A DNA stretch of 42,320 bases from Actinomycetota bacterium (GTDB lineage: Bacteria > Actinomycetota > Acidimicrobiia > Acidimicrobiales > Ilumatobacteraceae), in contig JAQCGT010000012.1 in assembly GCA_027730505.1 (NCBI GenBank), positions 1-42,320 of the forward strand. The letters run 5' to 3'. The position numbers and the translations under genes were made by a program. The notes under the pieces are model-generated. The model saw only the letters and a program-made list of their open reading frames with translations, did not search any database and had not been told where the DNA came from. This document shows positions 29,825 to 37,064 of the stretch, piece after piece (position 1 is the stretch's first letter; each line of letters starts with the position of its first letter).

Positions 29825-31198
29825 GTGGACACCACCTCGCACGAACTCGTCGTCCACTCCGCTCGGCTCGTCGCAACCTGCGACGCCAATCGAGCAGAGA
29901 TCCGCGGCGGATGGGTGGCTATCGACAATGGACTCATCACCGCGGTCGGATCCGGTCAGGCTCCCCGCGGTGCGAATGAGATCGATGCGTCGGGTTGCCT
30001 TGTCACCCCCGGGTTGATCAACACCCATCACCACCTCTATCAGAATCTGACACGGGCCTATCCGCCGATGACGGATTCACCGCTGTTCGGCTGGCTGCAG
30101 TCGCTGTATCCGCTGTGGGCGGCGCTCGACACCGAGTCGGTGTATCTGTCGGCGTGGGTTGGACTGGCCGAACTTGCCTTGTCGGGGTGCACAACCTCAA
30201 CCGATCATCTGTATGTGCATCCACGAGGTGCGGGTGACCTCCTGGCCGCTGAGATATCGGCGGCGATCGACCTCGGCATGCGGTTCCATCCGACGCACGG
30301 CTCGATGTCGCTGTCGGTGAAAGACGGCGGACTGCCCCCCGACGATGTCGTGAGCACCGACGATGAGATCCTCGCTGCGGCCGAGTCAGCGGTGAGCAGA
30401 CACCATGACCGTCAGCATGGTGCCATGGTGCGGATCGCCCTCGCCCCGTGCTCGCCGTTCAGCGTCACCGAGCAGTTGTTGATTCGTACAGCCGAATTGG
30501 CGGAGCGTCTCGACGTGCGTCTTCACACCCACTTCGCCGAGAACGCCGAGGACGACGAATTCAGCCTCGCCACCTTCGGCTGTCGACCGACCGAGTACCT
30601 CGAACGCACCGGATGGTGCACCGACCGCACGTGGGTCGCGCACTGCGTCATGCCGAACGCCGACGAGATCACGAGACTCGGTGCCGCCGGAGTCGGCGTG
30701 GCGCACTGTCCGAGCTCGAACCTGATCCTCGCCTCGGGCATTGCGCCGGTCGTTGCATTGCGCGACGCCGGATGTCATGTGGGCCTGGGCGTCGACGGTT
30801 CGTCATCTGCCGATTCGGCTTCGTTGTGGCTCGAAGCGCGCCAAGCGTTGCTGTTGGCCAAGTTGCGTGATGGCGCGGCGGCGATACGCGCCCGCGAGGT
30901 GCTCGAGATCGCCACCCTCGGTGGCGCTGCGTGTCTCGGCCGTAGCGGTGAACTCGGCGTGCTCACCACTGGAGCGGTCGGCGATGTCGCGATCTGGGAT
31001 CAGACCGGGCCGGCCCACGCCGGAGCGATCGCCGATCCGATCGAGGCATGGTTGCGTTGCGGTCCGACCGGGGCGCGAGACACGATCGTCGCCGGTCGGG
31101 CAGTGGTGCGCAATTCCGTGCTGGTGTCCGACCGGATGGATGAGATTCTCACCGCTCACGCCGTGGAAGCACGACGCATCCAGCGCCTGACCGACTGA
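29825..31198 (+). CDS. 8-Oxoguanine deaminase-like amidohydrolase
   Basis: A 457-residue metal-dependent amidohydrolase of the cyclic-amine deaminase group. The metal site begins with H68 and H70 in PGLINTHHHLYQNLTRA, followed by LHTHFAEN, WVAHCVM and the Asp of GLGVDGSSSADS. The THHHLYQNLTRA block is characteristic of 8-oxoguanine deaminases, which turn 8-oxoguanine into urate and ammonia; related triazine or guanine deaminases remain possible. GTG start four bases after the small protein gene. Its stop lies three bases from the convergent glnR-like gene, and a xanthine dehydrogenase-like enzyme is 3 kb away, which fits purine nitrogen recovery. Confidence 0.85.
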   Translation: MDTTSHELVVHSARLVATCDANRAEIRGGWVAIDNGLITAVGSGQAPRGANEIDASGCLVTPGLINTHHHLYQNLTRAYPPMTDSPLFGWLQSLYPLWAALDTESVYLSAWVGLAELALSGCTTSTDHLYVHPRGAGDLLAAEISAAIDLGMRFHPTHGSMSLSVKDGGLPPDDVVSTDDEILAAAESAVSRHHDRQHGAMVRIALAPCSPFSVTEQLLIRTAELAERLDVRLHTHFAENAEDDEFSLATFGCRPTEYLERTGWCTDRTWVAHCVMPNADEITRLGAAGVGVAHCPSSNLILASGIAPVVALRDAGCHVGLGVDGSSSADSASLWLEARQALLLAKLRDGAAAIRAREVLEIATLGGAACLGRSGELGVLTTGAVGDVAIWDQTGPAHAGAIADPIEAWLRCGPTGARDTIVAGRAVVRNSVLVSDRMDEILTAHAVEARRIQRLTD

Positions 31199-31201
31199 GA
31201 T

Positions 31202-31900
31202 TCAGACACCCCAGCGAGACTGGCCGAAGCGGTAGCCGACCGAGCGAACCGTCTGAATCAGATCGGCGTGCTCCTCACCGAGCTTGGCTCGCAGACGTCG
31301 CACATGCACGTCAACCGTGCGGGCGCCGCCGTAGTACTCGTATCCCCACACGCGGCTCAACAACATCTCACGGGTGAACACCTTGCCCGGATTCTGAGCC
31401 AGGAATTTCAACAACTCGTACTCCATGTACGTGAGGTCGAGCGGTCGATCACTGATCGAGGCCTGGTAGGTCTCGAGGTTCAGGGCGAGGTCGTCGTACA
31501 CGACGAGATCGCTGCGCGCCGCGACGGTGACCGTCGCAGCCATCAGGTGACGCATTCGTGCCTCGAGTTCACTCGGATGGAACGGTGCGAGGCAGAAGTC
31601 GTCGAAGAGGTCGTCCCGCAACTCGAGATCGGCGAGTTGTCCACCGGGAACGAGCACGAGCGTGCGCGCCGGATCGGAGTCGCCCTTGCGCAACGACCGA
31701 ACGAACGCCCACGCCGCCTCGGCATCAACGGTGAGATCGATGACTGCTCCGGCCCAACCGGTCGCCGGCCGAGCGTCAACGGCTCCCTCCCAACTGCTGA
31801 CACCCTTCCACGCATAGCCGGCGAGGTCGAGGGTACGCGCCAGTTCCGTGGACACCGGATCGCCGAACACGACGATCATTCCGATGTCCACCTGCGTCAC
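31202..31900 (-). CDS. glnR: GlnR-like orphan response regulator (OmpR family)
   Basis: A 232-residue regulator with an N-terminal receiver-like domain and a winged helix (131-225: TYMEYELLKFLAQNPGKVF, REMLLSRVWGYEYYGGARTVDVHVRRLR, VRSVGYRF). The receiver lacks the acidic pair of normal response regulators (it reads IVVFGDP), as in GlnR, which works without a sensor kinase. GlnR controls nitrogen assimilation in actinobacteria. The start chosen is a GTG overlapping the glnA stop (GTGA); ATG 31879 is an alternative. Position directly after glnA, and a GlnR-box-like array before glnII, support the name; the symbol is inferred. Confidence 0.8.
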   Translation of the reverse strand: MTQVDIGMIVVFGDPVSTELARTLDLAGYAWKGVSSWEGAVDARPATGWAGAVIDLTVDAEAAWAFVRSLRKGDSDPARTLVLVPGGQLADLELRDDLFDDFCLAPFHPSELEARMRHLMAATVTVAARSDLVVYDDLALNLETYQASISDRPLDLTYMEYELLKFLAQNPGKVFTREMLLSRVWGYEYYGGARTVDVHVRRLRAKLGEEHADLIQTVRSVGYRFGQSRWGV

Positions 31901-33234
31901 AGCGACCCCAGATACCGGTCGATCTCGAACTGGCTGACGTGGGTCTTGTAGTCCCGCCACTCACGGCGCTTATTGCGCAAGAACCACTCGAAGATGTGCT
32001 CACCGAGCGCTTCGCGTGCGAGATCAGATTCCTCCATGACCCGCAGCGAGTCGGACAATGACTGTGGTAACTGGCCGATCCCCAGTCGTGACAACTCCCG
32101 GTCACCGAGTTCGAACAGGTTCGCGTCGGCCTCGCCCGGCAACTCGTACCCTTCGCGCACGCCTCGCATACCGGCTGCCAGCAGCATGGCGAACGCCAGA
32201 TACGGGTTGCAGCTCGGATCAGGGGAGCGGTATTCGAGGCGCGTCGCACTCGGATTACCGCGCTTTGGAATGGGCACCCGGATGAGACCCGACCGGTTGT
32301 TGCGGGCCCACGAAACGTGCACTGGAGCCTCGAAGCCCGGCACCAGCCGCTTGTAGGAGTTCACCGTCGGATTGGTGATCGCAGTGATCTCAGCGGCATG
32401 GCGCAACAGACCGGCCATGAACGACTTGGCCAGCGGTGACAGGTTGTACGGGTCATTGGGATCGTAGAAGGCGTTGTCATCACCGCGGAACAACGACATA
32501 TGGGTGTGCATGCCCGATCCCTGGACGCCCTCGAGCGGCTTTGGCATGAACGTGGCGTAGACGCCGTGCTGGGCGGCGACCTCACGCACCACCAGACGGA
32601 AGGTCATGACCGCATCAGCCATGATCAGCGCGTCGTCGTGGCGCAGGTCGATCTCCTGCTGGCTCGGCGAGTCCTCGTGGAACGAGTACTCGACCGGGAT
32701 GCCGAGCTGTTCGAGCGTGCGGATCGTCTGCTTGCGCAGATCACCGGTGGCGTCACGGGTGGTCAGATCGAAGTACCCGCCGGCGTCGAGAGGCACCGGA
32801 CGCTCGCCGGTGACCGGGGGAGCGAAGTAGAAGAACTCGATGTCGGGGGCGATGTAGAAGCTCAGCCCGTCAGATCGCAACGACTGCACCTGGCGACGCA
32901 ACACCTGGCGGGGGTCACCGTCGAATGGGGTGCCATCGAGGTGATGGATGTCGCAGAACACTCTCGCCTCAGTCGATGATTTGTCGCCCCACGGCAAAAT
33001 CTGGAACGTGTCGGGATCGGGGATCGCCAACACATCGGATTCCTGCACACGGGAGAATCCGTCGATCGACGACCCGTCGAAGGTCATACCGTCGCTCAGC
33101 GCGTTCTCGAGTTCGTTCTGGCTGATGGCGAAGCTCTTGAGGTTGCCGAGTACATCGGTGAACCACAGACGCACCATACGAACCCCGCGCTCGGCAGCGG
33201 TTTTCAGGACGTAGTCGCACTGTTGGTCGCGCAT
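31897..33234 (-). CDS. glnA: Glutamine synthetase type I (GSI-alpha-like)
   Basis: Makes glutamine from glutamate, ammonia and ATP. The 445 residues include the latch DGSSIDGF (53-60), metal/ATP motifs in YSFHEDSPSQQEIDLRH, the GSGMHTHMSL signature (239-248), and NPTVNSYKRLVPGFEAP. R62 in GFSRVQESD is the residue that mediates feedback inhibition in GSI-alpha enzymes. At the adenylylation site the usual Tyr (NLYDLP) is Phe (NLFELG, F374), so covalent control is unlikely. The ATG at 33234 follows an AGGAG ribosome site; the upstream extension was rejected. It overlaps glnR. Confidence 0.95.
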   Translation of the reverse strand: MRDQQCDYVLKTAAERGVRMVRLWFTDVLGNLKSFAISQNELENALSDGMTFDGSSIDGFSRVQESDVLAIPDPDTFQILPWGDKSSTEARVFCDIHHLDGTPFDGDPRQVLRRQVQSLRSDGLSFYIAPDIEFFYFAPPVTGERPVPLDAGGYFDLTTRDATGDLRKQTIRTLEQLGIPVEYSFHEDSPSQQEIDLRHDDALIMADAVMTFRLVVREVAAQHGVYATFMPKPLEGVQGSGMHTHMSLFRGDDNAFYDPNDPYNLSPLAKSFMAGLLRHAAEITAITNPTVNSYKRLVPGFEAPVHVSWARNNRSGLIRVPIPKRGNPSATRLEYRSPDPSCNPYLAFAMLLAAGMRGVREGYELPGEADANLFELGDRELSRLGIGQLPQSLSDSLRVMEESDLAREALGEHIFEWFLRNKRREWRDYKTHVSQFEIDRYLGSL

Positions 33235-33274
33235 GATCTCTCCTTCGGCGGGACAAGTGTGGCAGCAAAGTGCG

Positions 33275-33305
33275 AAAAGAGGGTCCCGCCGCAGCGGAAC
33301 CCTCT
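33275..33305 (-). terminator. Intrinsic terminator between glnII and glnA
   Basis: On the minus strand AGAGGGTTCCGC (33305-33294) pairs with GCGGGACCCTCT (33289-33278) around a TGCG loop. This gives a 12-bp stem with one G-U pair, followed by TTTT. It lies 29 bases after the glnII stop and 40 before the glnA start, and may fully or partly end the glnII transcript. Confidence 0.8.
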
Positions 33306-33334
33306 CTTCGAAGGGGGGATCTGTGGACTGGCGC

Positions 33335-34363
33335 TCAGCGCTTCTTCGAGCCCTTGGCAGCCGCCGTGCACACCGTGTCGGTGATGAGGCGGGCCACGGT
33401 GTAGGGATCGCAGTTGGCGTTGGGACGACGATCTTCGGCGTAACCCTTGCCGTCCTTCTCCACCTGCCACGGGATTCGGATCGAAGCGCCACGGTCAGAC
33501 ACGCCGTAGCTGAACTTGTCCCACGGAGCGGTCTCATGAGCACCGGTCAGACGGTCCTGGATGCCGTCGCCGTAGTTCATGACGAGATCCATGTAGTTCT
33601 TTCCGATCGCCTCGCAGGCAGCGGTGATCGCCCTGTAGCTCTCACGCATTGCGACAGTCGAGAAGTTGGTGTGACAGCCAGCGCCGTTCCAGTCACCCTT
33701 CTTGGGCTTGGCGTCGAAGCTGATGACTACGTCGTAATCCTCGGCGATGCGATGGAGAAGCCAGCGCGACACGTACATCTGGTCGCCGACAGCGGTCGGG
33801 CCGAGCGGTCCGATCTGGTACTCCCACTGGCCGGGCATGACCTCGGCGTTGGTGCCCGAGATCGACAGACCGGCATCGATGCAGGCCTGGGTGTGCTCTT
33901 CGACGATCTCACGACCGACGACGCGGCCGGTGCCGACGCCGCAGTAGTACGGACCCTGCGGGGCGGGCTGGCCACCACCGACGGGGAAGCCGAGGGGGCT
34001 GCCGTCGGGACGCAGCATCGTGTACTCCTGCTCGAGGCCGAAGATCATGGCGTCATCGGCGTACTTCTTCTCGATCCGGGCGCAGGCGGCACGGGTGTTC
34101 GACGGATGTGCACGCATGTTCGAGGCGAGCAACACCTCGCACATCACGAGGATGTTGCGACCACCACGGATGGGATCGGGGCACTGGAAGACCGGACGCA
34201 GCACACAGTCGGACTTGTCGCCCGTGGCCTGCTCGGTCGAGGAACCGTCGAAACCCCAGATCGGGGGTTCGGTGACCTCGTCATGGAGGATCTTGGTCTT
34301 GGACCGGAGCATGGGTGTCGGCTCATGGCCGTCGATCCAGATGTATTCAGCTTGGTACGCCAC
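33335..34363 (-). CDS. glnII: Glutamine synthetase type II (eukaryotic type)
   Basis: A 342-residue GSII. Signatures are AEYIWIDG, PPIWGFDGSSTEQA (latch), FGLEQEYTML, ISGTNAEVMPGQWEYQIGP and GAGCHTNFST, all typical of eukaryotic and actinobacterial/rhizobial GlnII. These enzymes are octamers or decamers and are not adenylylated. GTG start with AAAGGG about seven bases before. The GlnR-box-like array and a fair promoter lie in the 100 bases upstream, so expression is probably nitrogen-controlled. Confidence 0.96.
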   Translation of the reverse strand: MAYQAEYIWIDGHEPTPMLRSKTKILHDEVTEPPIWGFDGSSTEQATGDKSDCVLRPVFQCPDPIRGGRNILVMCEVLLASNMRAHPSNTRAACARIEKKYADDAMIFGLEQEYTMLRPDGSPLGFPVGGGQPAPQGPYYCGVGTGRVVGREIVEEHTQACIDAGLSISGTNAEVMPGQWEYQIGPLGPTAVGDQMYVSRWLLHRIAEDYDVVISFDAKPKKGDWNGAGCHTNFSTVAMRESYRAITAACEAIGKNYMDLVMNYGDGIQDRLTGAHETAPWDKFSYGVSDRGASIRIPWQVEKDGKGYAEDRRPNANCDPYTVARLITDTVCTAAAKGSKKR

Positions 34364-34387
34364 AGGGGACCCTTTCGGTTCAGATGG

Positions 34388-34415
34388 CTTGTAGGGGCGT
34401 CGCAGACGATGTCAG
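34388..34415 (-). promoter_or_regulatory. Predicted glnII promoter
   Basis: Minus strand: -35 CTGACA (34415-34410) and -10 TACAAG (34393-34388) with a 16-bp spacer. The -35 box overlaps the last half-site of the GlnR-box-like array, a layout usual for activated promoters. The expected transcript start is about 18 bases before the GTG. Confidence 0.5.
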
Positions 34416-34459
34416 CACGCCGTTTCGAAGCCGTGTCCCAATTGTGAACGCCGTGTGAA
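34411..34459 (-). promoter_or_regulatory. GlnR-box-like array upstream of glnII
   Basis: On the minus strand five 5-mers ending in AC are spaced exactly 11 bp apart: TTCAC (34459), TTCAC (34448), GACAC (34437), GAAAC (34426) and CTGAC (34415). This follows the GlnR consensus of gTnAC and GaAAC half-sites separated by six bases. Binding is inferred. Confidence 0.65.
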
Positions 34460-34463
34460 CTGG

Positions 34464-37064
34464 TCAGCGAGGGCGCATCGGCAACCTATGTCGGTGCTCG
34501 CCGTCGAAGGCGTGGAGCGCTGCGGCCACCGCTGGCGCCGTGGGCACCAGGCCGATCTCACCGACACCTTTGATGCCGAAGGGCGACCGAGGTTGTGGCA
34601 CTTCGACGAGGCGAACCTCGACAGCAGGCATGTCTTTAGCGCGCAGGATGCCCAACTGTCGCAAGGTGGTCGCAGTCGGCATTGCCGACTCATCGGCGGG
34701 GAAGTCCTCGGTGAGGGCGTAACCGAGACCCATGTGCACTGAACCCTCGACCTGACCTTCGACGAGTAAGGGGTTCACCGCACGGCCGACGTCGTGAACG
34801 GCGACGACACGATCGACCGAACCACCCTCATCGAGCACGACCATCTGCGCCGCATATGAGAAACACGAATGGATCGTCGGGTTCTGCACCGTCGGGTCGC
34901 CGAGCTTCTGCGTCCAATCGATCACGTACTCACCGTGATGATCGACGTCAGGTGTGCATCCAGCCTCGAGCGCGGCCGCACACGCAGCGCGCACCGAGCC
35001 GGCGGTCATCAACGTGCCTCGGCTTCCCGTGGTTTGACCGAAACCGAGTTCACGCGTCGTGTCGACGATCACGTCGATACGACTGGGATCGACACCGAGT
35101 TCACCAGCAGCCACCTGTAGGGCGACCGTGTGCACACCTTGACCCATTTCGGTCCATCCATGACGCACCTCGATGCGGCCGTCGGTTCGGAACCGCACCA
35201 CCGCACCGCACACCTCTCGGAAGCCGTTGCCGAGTCCTGAGTTCTTCATGCCGATGGCGAGACCCACGGCCCGCCCCTCGGCACGCGCTGCCTCCCAGTC
35301 GGGCCGGATCGCATCGAGACAGGCGAGTGCCCCACCGGCACCGTCGTCCATCACCTGACCAGGACCCCAGATGTCGCCCGAGGCGATCACGTTGCGCCGA
35401 CGCATCTCCCATGGATCGATCCCTGCGACCTCGGCGAGACGATCGATCATGCCCTCGGTTGCGAACTGCGCCTGATTAGCGCCGAAGCCTCGGAATGCTC
35501 CGCACACCGGGTTGTTCGTGCGAACCGCGATCGCCTCAACGTCGAGCGCCTGCCAGCGGTATGGACCTGCAGCGTGGCCGGCGGCCCGTTCGAGCACTTT
35601 CATGCCGACACTCGCATAGGCGCCGGAGTCGCCGATGGCACGAACCGAGAGACCGGTGAGTGTGCCCTCGGCATCGCATCCCGCACGCATGACCAACTGG
35701 ATCGGATGACGCTTGGCGTGCATGCGGAAGCTTTCCGGTCGGCTGAGCGTGCACTTGACCGGGCGGTCGAGAATCCAGGCAGCGAGTGCTGCATGCCCCT
35801 GGTTGGACATGTCCTCCTTGCCGCCGAAAGCACCGCCGTTAGACACGAGCTCGACCGTGACCCGGTCGCGTTCAACGCCGAGCACGGCAGCGATGTCGTT
35901 ACGGTCGTCCCACACACCCTGACCACCCGAGTACACGTGCAGTCGGCGATCATCGCCACTGCCCGAAGGGACCGCCACCGTCGACTCCGGCTCCAAGAAG
36001 GCGTGCTCGATGCGCTGCGTGGTGAATGTTTCGCTGACGACATGGGCGCTCGCATCGATCACGGCATCGACATCTTTTGACACACCGTCAGCGCTGCGTC
36101 GGTACGCGCTCGTCGACAGCACGTTCGAGTCGGTTCCCCAGACGGCGATCGGAGCGCCCTCAGCCAACGCTGCCACGGGGTCGACGACCGGCGGAAGTAC
36201 GTCGTAATCGATCGCCACCAGTTCAGCTGCTGCCCGTGCCCGCTCCCGTGTGTCGGCCACGACGACAGCGAGCACATCGCCGCCATAGGAGGTGACACCG
36301 TCGACGGGAATCATCAACGGCCAGTCCTTGTGGATGAGTCCGGTGCGCAACTCGCCGGGGATGTCCTGGGCGGTGAGAACCGACACCACTCCGGGTGCCG
36401 CACGCGCGTCGGCGATGTCGATGCGTCGCACCCTGGCTCGGGCGTGGTCGGTGAGCCGAAGCGCTGCGTGCAGCATCCCCGGCACTCGAATGTCGTCGAC
36501 ATAGTCACGATGGCCGAGGGTCAACTCAGCTGCCTCGTACTTGGCGCCCCGGCCACCGACACCGTCGGCAAGGCGCGGCGGGTCAACGGCACGTCCCTGT
36601 GCGACGGTCTCGATGGCGTCGAGGATCTTCACGTATCCAGTGCAGCGGCACAGATGGGCGCCGAGATGCGGGGCCATCGCCTCCCGGGTGAGCGCCGCCC
36701 CCTTCTTCGCGATCTGATGATGGGCCCGCATGACGATGCCCGGAATACAGAATCCGCATTGGAGGCCACCGCAGGCTGCGAAGGCCTCGGCGAATCTCGT
36801 GCGTTCATCCTCGGGCAGCCCTTCGAGGGTCACCACCTGCTTGCCCGCCACCGAGTCGACTGATTGCTGGCAGGCCACCACGGCCCGCCCGTCGATGAGC
36901 ACCGTGCAGCAGCCGCACTGACCGGATGGGGAACATCCGTCCTTCGGCGAGGTGATGTCGAGCTCTTCGCGAAGAGCCGACAGCAGGTGCGGGTGCTCGA
37001 CCCCGACGCTCACGTCATGGCCGTTCACGCTGAACTGGACACGCCCCTGCTCGATCACCGACAC
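34464..37064 (-). CDS. Xanthine dehydrogenase-family molybdenum hydroxylase, fused Fe-S and Mo subunits
   Basis: An 866-residue molybdopterin enzyme. The N-terminal plant-type [2Fe-2S] site has C44, C50, C53 and C65; the second [2Fe-2S] site has C103, C106, C139 and C141. Residues from about 175 on are the molybdenum domains, with substrate motif NPVCGAFRGFGANQ and the catalytic E836 in GVGEIG. There is no FAD subunit in the chain or next door, as in Desulfovibrio MOP-type aldehyde oxidoreductase or the fused Se-dependent hydroxylases. The substrate may be xanthine or another purine given the neighbours, but an aldehyde or N-heterocycle cannot be excluded. GTG start (MSVIEQGRVQF). Confidence 0.9.
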   Translation of the reverse strand: MSVIEQGRVQFSVNGHDVSVGVEHPHLLSALREELDITSPKDGCSPSGQCGCCTVLIDGRAVVACQQSVDSVAGKQVVTLEGLPEDERTRFAEAFAACGGLQCGFCIPGIVMRAHHQIAKKGAALTREAMAPHLGAHLCRCTGYVKILDAIETVAQGRAVDPPRLADGVGGRGAKYEAAELTLGHRDYVDDIRVPGMLHAALRLTDHARARVRRIDIADARAAPGVVSVLTAQDIPGELRTGLIHKDWPLMIPVDGVTSYGGDVLAVVVADTRERARAAAELVAIDYDVLPPVVDPVAALAEGAPIAVWGTDSNVLSTSAYRRSADGVSKDVDAVIDASAHVVSETFTTQRIEHAFLEPESTVAVPSGSGDDRRLHVYSGGQGVWDDRNDIAAVLGVERDRVTVELVSNGGAFGGKEDMSNQGHAALAAWILDRPVKCTLSRPESFRMHAKRHPIQLVMRAGCDAEGTLTGLSVRAIGDSGAYASVGMKVLERAAGHAAGPYRWQALDVEAIAVRTNNPVCGAFRGFGANQAQFATEGMIDRLAEVAGIDPWEMRRRNVIASGDIWGPGQVMDDGAGGALACLDAIRPDWEAARAEGRAVGLAIGMKNSGLGNGFREVCGAVVRFRTDGRIEVRHGWTEMGQGVHTVALQVAAGELGVDPSRIDVIVDTTRELGFGQTTGSRGTLMTAGSVRAACAAALEAGCTPDVDHHGEYVIDWTQKLGDPTVQNPTIHSCFSYAAQMVVLDEGGSVDRVVAVHDVGRAVNPLLVEGQVEGSVHMGLGYALTEDFPADESAMPTATTLRQLGILRAKDMPAVEVRLVEVPQPRSPFGIKGVGEIGLVPTAPAVAAALHAFDGEHRHRLPMRPR

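Follow-up and report, generated by a model that had tools for sequence, protein, structure and literature searches.

Which regulator reads the direct repeats upstream of glnII in this Ilumatobacteraceae genome, and how is the promoter built to which they belong? The window, i.e., the whole stretch of DNA that was analysed (42,320 nucleotides), carries glnII, glnA, and glnR in this order on its minus strand. Most of the 100 bp that separate the GTG start codon of glnII (34363) from the stop codon of a xanthine-dehydrogenase-like gene (34464-34466) is taken up by an array of phased pentamers. The sequence-only reading of this DNA had described a box of five GlnR half-sites, the last one overlapping a -35 box. 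The features of the locus are the following:

34455-34459, minus strand: half-site 1, TTCAC, a-type position, kept in relatives
34444-34448, minus strand: half-site 2, TTCAC, b-type position, kept in relatives
34433-34437, minus strand: half-site 3, GACAC; G[CA]AAC in most relatives (GCAAC in most)
34422-34426, minus strand: half-site 4, GAAAC, the most constant b-type site
34412-34414, minus strand: TGn, extended -10 motif, part of CTGAC; TG at +45/+46 in 29 of 46 loci
34406-34411, minus strand: -10 hexamer CATCGT (nAnnnT), +48 to +53 from the first base of half-site 1
34370-34376, minus strand: probable ribosome binding site of glnII, GAAAGGG, read from the sequence
33335-34363, minus strand: glnII, glutamine synthetase II, GTG start (NF041605, 570.8 bits, cut-off 500)
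approximately 33266-33310, minus strand: strong hairpin with UUUU tail in the glnII/glnA gap (MFE -40.3 kcal/mol for 33240-33340, z = -2.65)
31897-33234, minus strand: glnA, type I glutamine synthetase of ~445 amino acids (TIGR00653, 477.7 bits, cut-off 429.15), alpha-like by length and closest structures
31202-31879, minus strand: glnR ortholog, OmpR-type orphan regulator, ATG at 31879, with 8hig and 8hih as nearest solved sequences

On the minus strand, TTCAC, TTCAC, GACAC, and GAAAC follow each other at exact 11-bp steps from 34459 down to 34422, which corresponds to the 5-bp a- and b-type half-sites, 6-bp spacers, and direct 11-bp register of a GlnR box. The positions and the spacing of the five pentamers that had been described at 34459-34411 are correct, but the fifth one does not behave as a half-site, as detailed below. 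Furthermore, five half-sites would not be unusually long, as had been supposed, since four are the canonical GlnR element and published elements range from 0 to 6 sites (PMC10704036, PMC4140684). The letters of the array fit the degenerate actinobacterial GlnR consensus (t/gna/cAC, GnAAc; PMC10704036, Table 2), and the fit to the strict Streptomyces coelicolor consensus is poorer at sites 1-3. A chance periodicity has in its favour that the expectation for five AC dinucleotides in an 11-bp register is 0.10 per window, so such a run is weak evidence for an array when taken alone, so that the case rests on conservation. The pattern TTCAC-n6-TTCAC-n6-GnnAC-n6-GAAAC has one match with 0 mismatches in the 42,320-nt window, and according to dinucleotide shuffles only 0.01 occurrences of the four-site pattern are expected per window even when up to three mismatches are allowed. 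Sequence, phase, and orientation are moreover deeply conserved, which already refutes chance, and its probability can be regarded as practically negligible.

Four half-sites at 11-bp steps are present in 28 of 30 glnII loci of close relatives (the locus described here being one of the 30), and the two exceptions, L023 and L030, are degenerate. The comparison was extended to 78 glnII upstream regions of named genomes, comprising Ilumatobacteraceae, other Acidimicrobiia, Actinoplanes, Microbispora, Streptacidiphilus, Streptomyces, and others, the threshold being a four-site score of 17 out of a maximum of 20. At a step of 11 bp, 59 of the 78 regions reach this score, compared to 0-3 at the control steps 8-10 and 12-14, 10 at the harmonic step of 22, and one on the reverse strand at step 11. 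The glnII loci of Actinoplanes are mostly without a clear array. The orientation of the array is constant in the family, where the gene order is glnII-glnA-glnR, as well as in other families, in which glnII and glnA-glnR diverge. The 11-bp phasing typical of a GlnR box, which the sequence-only reading had asked to be checked, is thus kept in relatives, and so is the orientation. A profile built from the glnII and amt arrays (R1) was additionally run on 79 genomes of the order and gave a match at E <=0.1 in 63 of them. Among the best 29 loci, which were fetched, 28 have the site immediately before a glutamine synthetase or Amt gene, and the remaining locus, at a contig end (L247), likewise carries glnII; the profile had been built without 27 of the 29 sites.

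What, then, is the fifth unit? Offsets were numbered with the first T of half-site 1 as 0, and the columns following half-site 4 were inspected in 46 arrays, all of them from outside the genus. The nnnAC of the fifth unit is kept in 10 of the 46, versus 25 to 46 for sites 1-4; half-site 4 has G, A, and A at its positions 1, 3, and 4 in all 46, partly by selection. An A at +49 and a T at +53 are found in 46 of 46 loci, a count that drew, like the following ones, on loci selected by sites 1-4 only. With a slightly different selection the pair is present in 53 of 55 distinct glnII loci, in 23 of 28 order-wide matches (with four further ones shifted one base on), and in 13 of 13 amt promoters, compared to counts of 0-9 for the same pair at other offsets and background frequencies of 0.22 for A and 0.19 for T. 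The motif nAnnnT is characteristic of -10 hexamers, which a preceding TGn turns into extended -10 elements. In the same genome, the -10 elements of amt (TACCGT) and of two pstS promoters of the PHO type (TAGTTT) are located at the identical offset, and the degenerate array of a small regulator gene has GAACCT there.

It had been proposed instead that CTGAC is a fifth GlnR half-site overlapping a -35 box, CTGACA, with a -10 element further downstream, e.g., the genus-conserved CCCCTACAAG. CTGAC is indeed in exact register, CTGACA matches four of the six -35 bases, and CCCCTACA is kept within the genus. However, the AC of the fifth unit is mostly lost outside the genus, A+49 and T+53 are invariant, and the amt and pstS promoters have TAnnnT at the same offset; therefore CTGACA is very probably not a -35 box, its position behaving across relatives as TGn plus -10. 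A sigma-70 scan for a -35 hexamer with a -10 located 16-18 bp downstream gave no such pair, and the region where a -35 would be is occupied by sites 3-4. The five-site version is accordingly very improbable, and CCCCTACAAG as -10 in combination with CTGACA as -35 was rejected on the same grounds. The predicted promoter layout is four 11-bp half-sites followed by a -10 at +48, with no -35, and the transcription start of glnII is inferred to be near 34399.

If the array is a GlnR operator, further nitrogen genes of this genome can be assumed to carry it, and absence from them would have spoken against the proposal. For a hold-out test a second profile (R2) was built from other genera only; since its members were required to have A+49 and T+53, R2 is no evidence for those two columns. 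In the whole genome, R2 detected the glnII array with E = 1.0e-11 and an array upstream of amt with a modest score (E = 0.0047), and no further match was found up to E = 10. Within the window, the glnII site scored 46.0 bits and the next best one 7.8. The amt array reads GTCAC-n6-GAAAC-n6-GCGAC-n6-GAAAA, has its -10 at the same offset as glnII, and shows the a-b-a-b order of the published S. coelicolor consensus (PMC10704036). A degenerate array upstream of the winged-helix gene that precedes amt escaped the profile but turned up in a looser scan. Several nitrogen genes are thus covered: glnII and amt by profile, plus this degenerate one. The search for targets relied on profiles and patterns, and as degenerate arrays escape profiles, other weak targets may have been missed. 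A second exact copy of GTTCACACGGCGTTCAC on contig C107 is presumably due to chance; it is found on the opposite strand, where a nucleosidase-like gene has its 3' end, and lacks sites 3-4.

The winged-helix gene is a small ORF (L072; G000:C33:21489-21692, minus strand) of 75 amino acids counted from the ATG, consisting of an OmpR-type winged-helix domain on its own (PF00486, 35.1 bits). It immediately precedes amt and is conserved in the genus. Its own array reads GAAAC.TTCAC.GCGAC.GTGAT, with the -10-like GAACCT at +48. That the product is a reduced NnaR-like co-regulator of GlnR is only a guess. Downstream of amt, as read from the translations, two tandem PII (GlnK-like) genes are followed by a gene for a ferredoxin-domain protein resembling the coenzyme F420 hydrogenase beta subunit.

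The half-sites also have a resemblance to PHO boxes, and a phosphate regulator of the PhoP/RegX3/PhoB type might read the whole array or sites 1-2, alone or in competition with GlnR. The genome contains two pstS-like genes (L081 and L083 on contigs C59 and C153) with near-identical PHO promoters that have TTCAC units in an 11-bp register and TAGTTT at +48. Sites 1-2 (GTTCACA) resemble the GTTCACC units of both pstS promoters, which share the 11-bp phase and the -10 offset, and a PhoB/RegX3-like regulator gene is located ~6 kb from one pstS (contig C153). Moreover, competition of PhoP and GlnR at glnA, glnII, and amtB has been published for S. coelicolor (PMC10704036). Yet, direct GTTCACC repeats in an 11-bp register, which define a PHO box, are not present at glnII: there are only two units, both GTTCACA instead of GTTCACC, and sites 3-4 differ, being GlnR b-type sites common to amt and to glnII of Streptomyces. 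In addition, the hold-out profile R2 has no match at the pstS loci, and none of the fetched order-wide matches is located at a phosphate gene. The PHO box as sole identity of the array is rejected, as the profile separates both classes, and a phosphate regulator as its sole reader appears unlikely, although the evidence does not speak against competition; taken together, reading by a phosphate regulator in either form is improbable.

The regulator that most likely reads the array is the product of glnR (31202-31879). As the sequence-only reading had stated, this gene lies ~2.5 kb downstream on the same strand, two genes after glnII. Compared with solved sequences, the regulator scores 132.8 bits against 8hig and 130.8 bits against 8hih, both of which we take to be GlnR, versus 81.1 for MtrA and 72.5 for RegX3; its OmpR-type DNA-binding domain is hence nearest to GlnR. 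The recognition region RTVDVH[VI]RRLRAKLG is near-invariant among relatives. The protein can be designated an orphan regulator, its gene being flanked by glnA and an 8-oxoguanine-deaminase-like gene with no sensor kinase adjoining. In the 79 genomes of the order, GlnR orthologs and paralogs are clearly separate, with an ortholog at E < 1e-40 in 72, and the orthologs adjoin glnA in most relatives. The co-occurrence of GlnR and array reaches p = 0.03 when the loosest cut is applied but no significance with stricter cuts, the power being low with only 7 of 79 genomes negative for GlnR. In one genome for which no GlnR ortholog was scored (G068), arrays precede a glutamine synthetase gene and an Amt-like gene (L260, G068:C53; L263, G068:C130), and an ArsR/rhodanese-like gene is found at the place after glnA where glnR is expected. 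Loss of GlnR, assembly gaps, or another reader may account for this combination. A search of the literature on GlnR in Acidimicrobiia retrieved no paper joining both; the match concerned GlnRS.

The receiver domain is less constant. Of the published receiver features (Asp at 48-50, Arg-52), the Asp is present here and Thr replaces Arg-52. D48 is reported to be essential in GlnR of Mycobacterium smegmatis. Among 36 aligned GlnR sequences of Acidimicrobiia (orthologs from L115-L150), 11 have this receiver Asp (D48), and T, S, A, or a similar residue stands in place of the usual receiver lysine in GlnR of this class, the DNA-recognition region being near-invariant.

Compared with known systems, the array shares with the S. 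coelicolor GlnR box (gTnAC-n6-GaAAC-n6-GtnAC-n6-GAAAC) the four 5-bp half-sites, the 6-bp spacers, the location on the coding strand, and the position before glnII and amt. It differs in sites 1-2, which are TTCAC and TTCAC instead of gTnAC and GaAAC, and in site 3, which is GACAC. At glnII loci of Streptomyces, GTAAC-n6-TTCAC-n6-GCAAT-n6-GAAAT is followed by TTGACAGGCT, with the A and the T at the same offsets as here. The array described here heads glnII-glnA-glnR, whereas in S. coelicolor glnII is SCO2210, glnA is SCO2198, and glnR is SCO4159. With PHO boxes and PhoB-type class II promoters it has in common the 11-bp phasing, the GTTCAC core in sites 1-2, the -10 offset, and the lack of a -35, but GTTCACA stands in place of GTTCACC and sites 3-4 are of the GlnR b-type. 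In the GlnR activation complex of Shi et al. (2023; 8HIH; cited in PMC10704036), four DNA-binding domains are arranged head to tail on a four-site promoter and a receiver-domain tetramer bridges to RNA polymerase. The 8hih entry contains four chains of the GlnR sequence. Four sites followed by a fixed -10 fit this complex; the receiver domain here has diverged.

Based on this, 34406-34459 is very probably a GlnR-dependent activator site fused to a glnII promoter without a -35. Four DNA-binding domains of GlnR would bind head to tail to the four 11-bp-spaced half-sites, i.e., two 22-bp a-b boxes, and bound GlnR would cover the would-be -35 region and keep RNA polymerase in place on CATCGT and its TGn extension, at the fixed distance of +48 bp. 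Transcription would then proceed from near 34399 through glnII, with partial read-through of the hairpin into glnA and glnR. The proposal that a GlnR-type operator drives glnII is thus supported by four phased and conserved sites, the amt array, and a GlnR encoded nearby, and direct activation of glnII by GlnR is probable. In S. coelicolor, GlnR activates glnII under nitrogen limitation (PMC10704036), and by homology the same is likely to apply here.

The strong hairpin between glnII and glnA is possibly an attenuator or a leaky terminator. With this hairpin in between, positive autoregulation of glnR through the glnII array is only a possibility. A similar hairpin is found in the glnII-glnA gap of L118, and among collinear relatives about half have a hairpin of different sequence in this gap and the others a very short gap. 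The gln genes are flanked by purine-catabolism genes that are kept there in the genus: an 8-oxoguanine-deaminase-like gene (29825-31198, plus strand) and the fused xanthine-dehydrogenase-like gene (34464-37064, minus strand), hinting at purines as nitrogen source.

The array represents what appears to be a canonical GlnR-type operator-promoter in Acidimicrobiia, which is ordinary in kind, its novelty being limited to the order in which it occurs. A wider view, which we put forward as speculation and regard as rather doubtful, is that the nitrogen and phosphate regulons of Acidimicrobiia and glnII of Streptomyces use one rigid -35-less grammar of four 11-bp half-sites with a -10 at a distance of exactly 48 bp from the first, in which the letters of the half-sites alone would pick GlnR or Pho. 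In this case glnII, with its first two PHO-like sites, would be a built-in integration point, and GlnR of this class would work without the receiver aspartate needed by mycobacterial GlnR and, in the family, sit in the operon it activates. The four-site layout corrects the five-site/-35 version, which would have implied an unusual mechanism. The rule of a fixed -10 offset, nAnnnT at +48 to +53 of a four-site array, may be used for predicting start sites and as a filter against false GlnR boxes, and the order-wide operator would allow prediction of the regulon from sequence. It places the Acidimicrobiia, i.e., Ilumatobacter-like aquatic actinobacteria that are mostly uncultured, probably among the users of GlnR.
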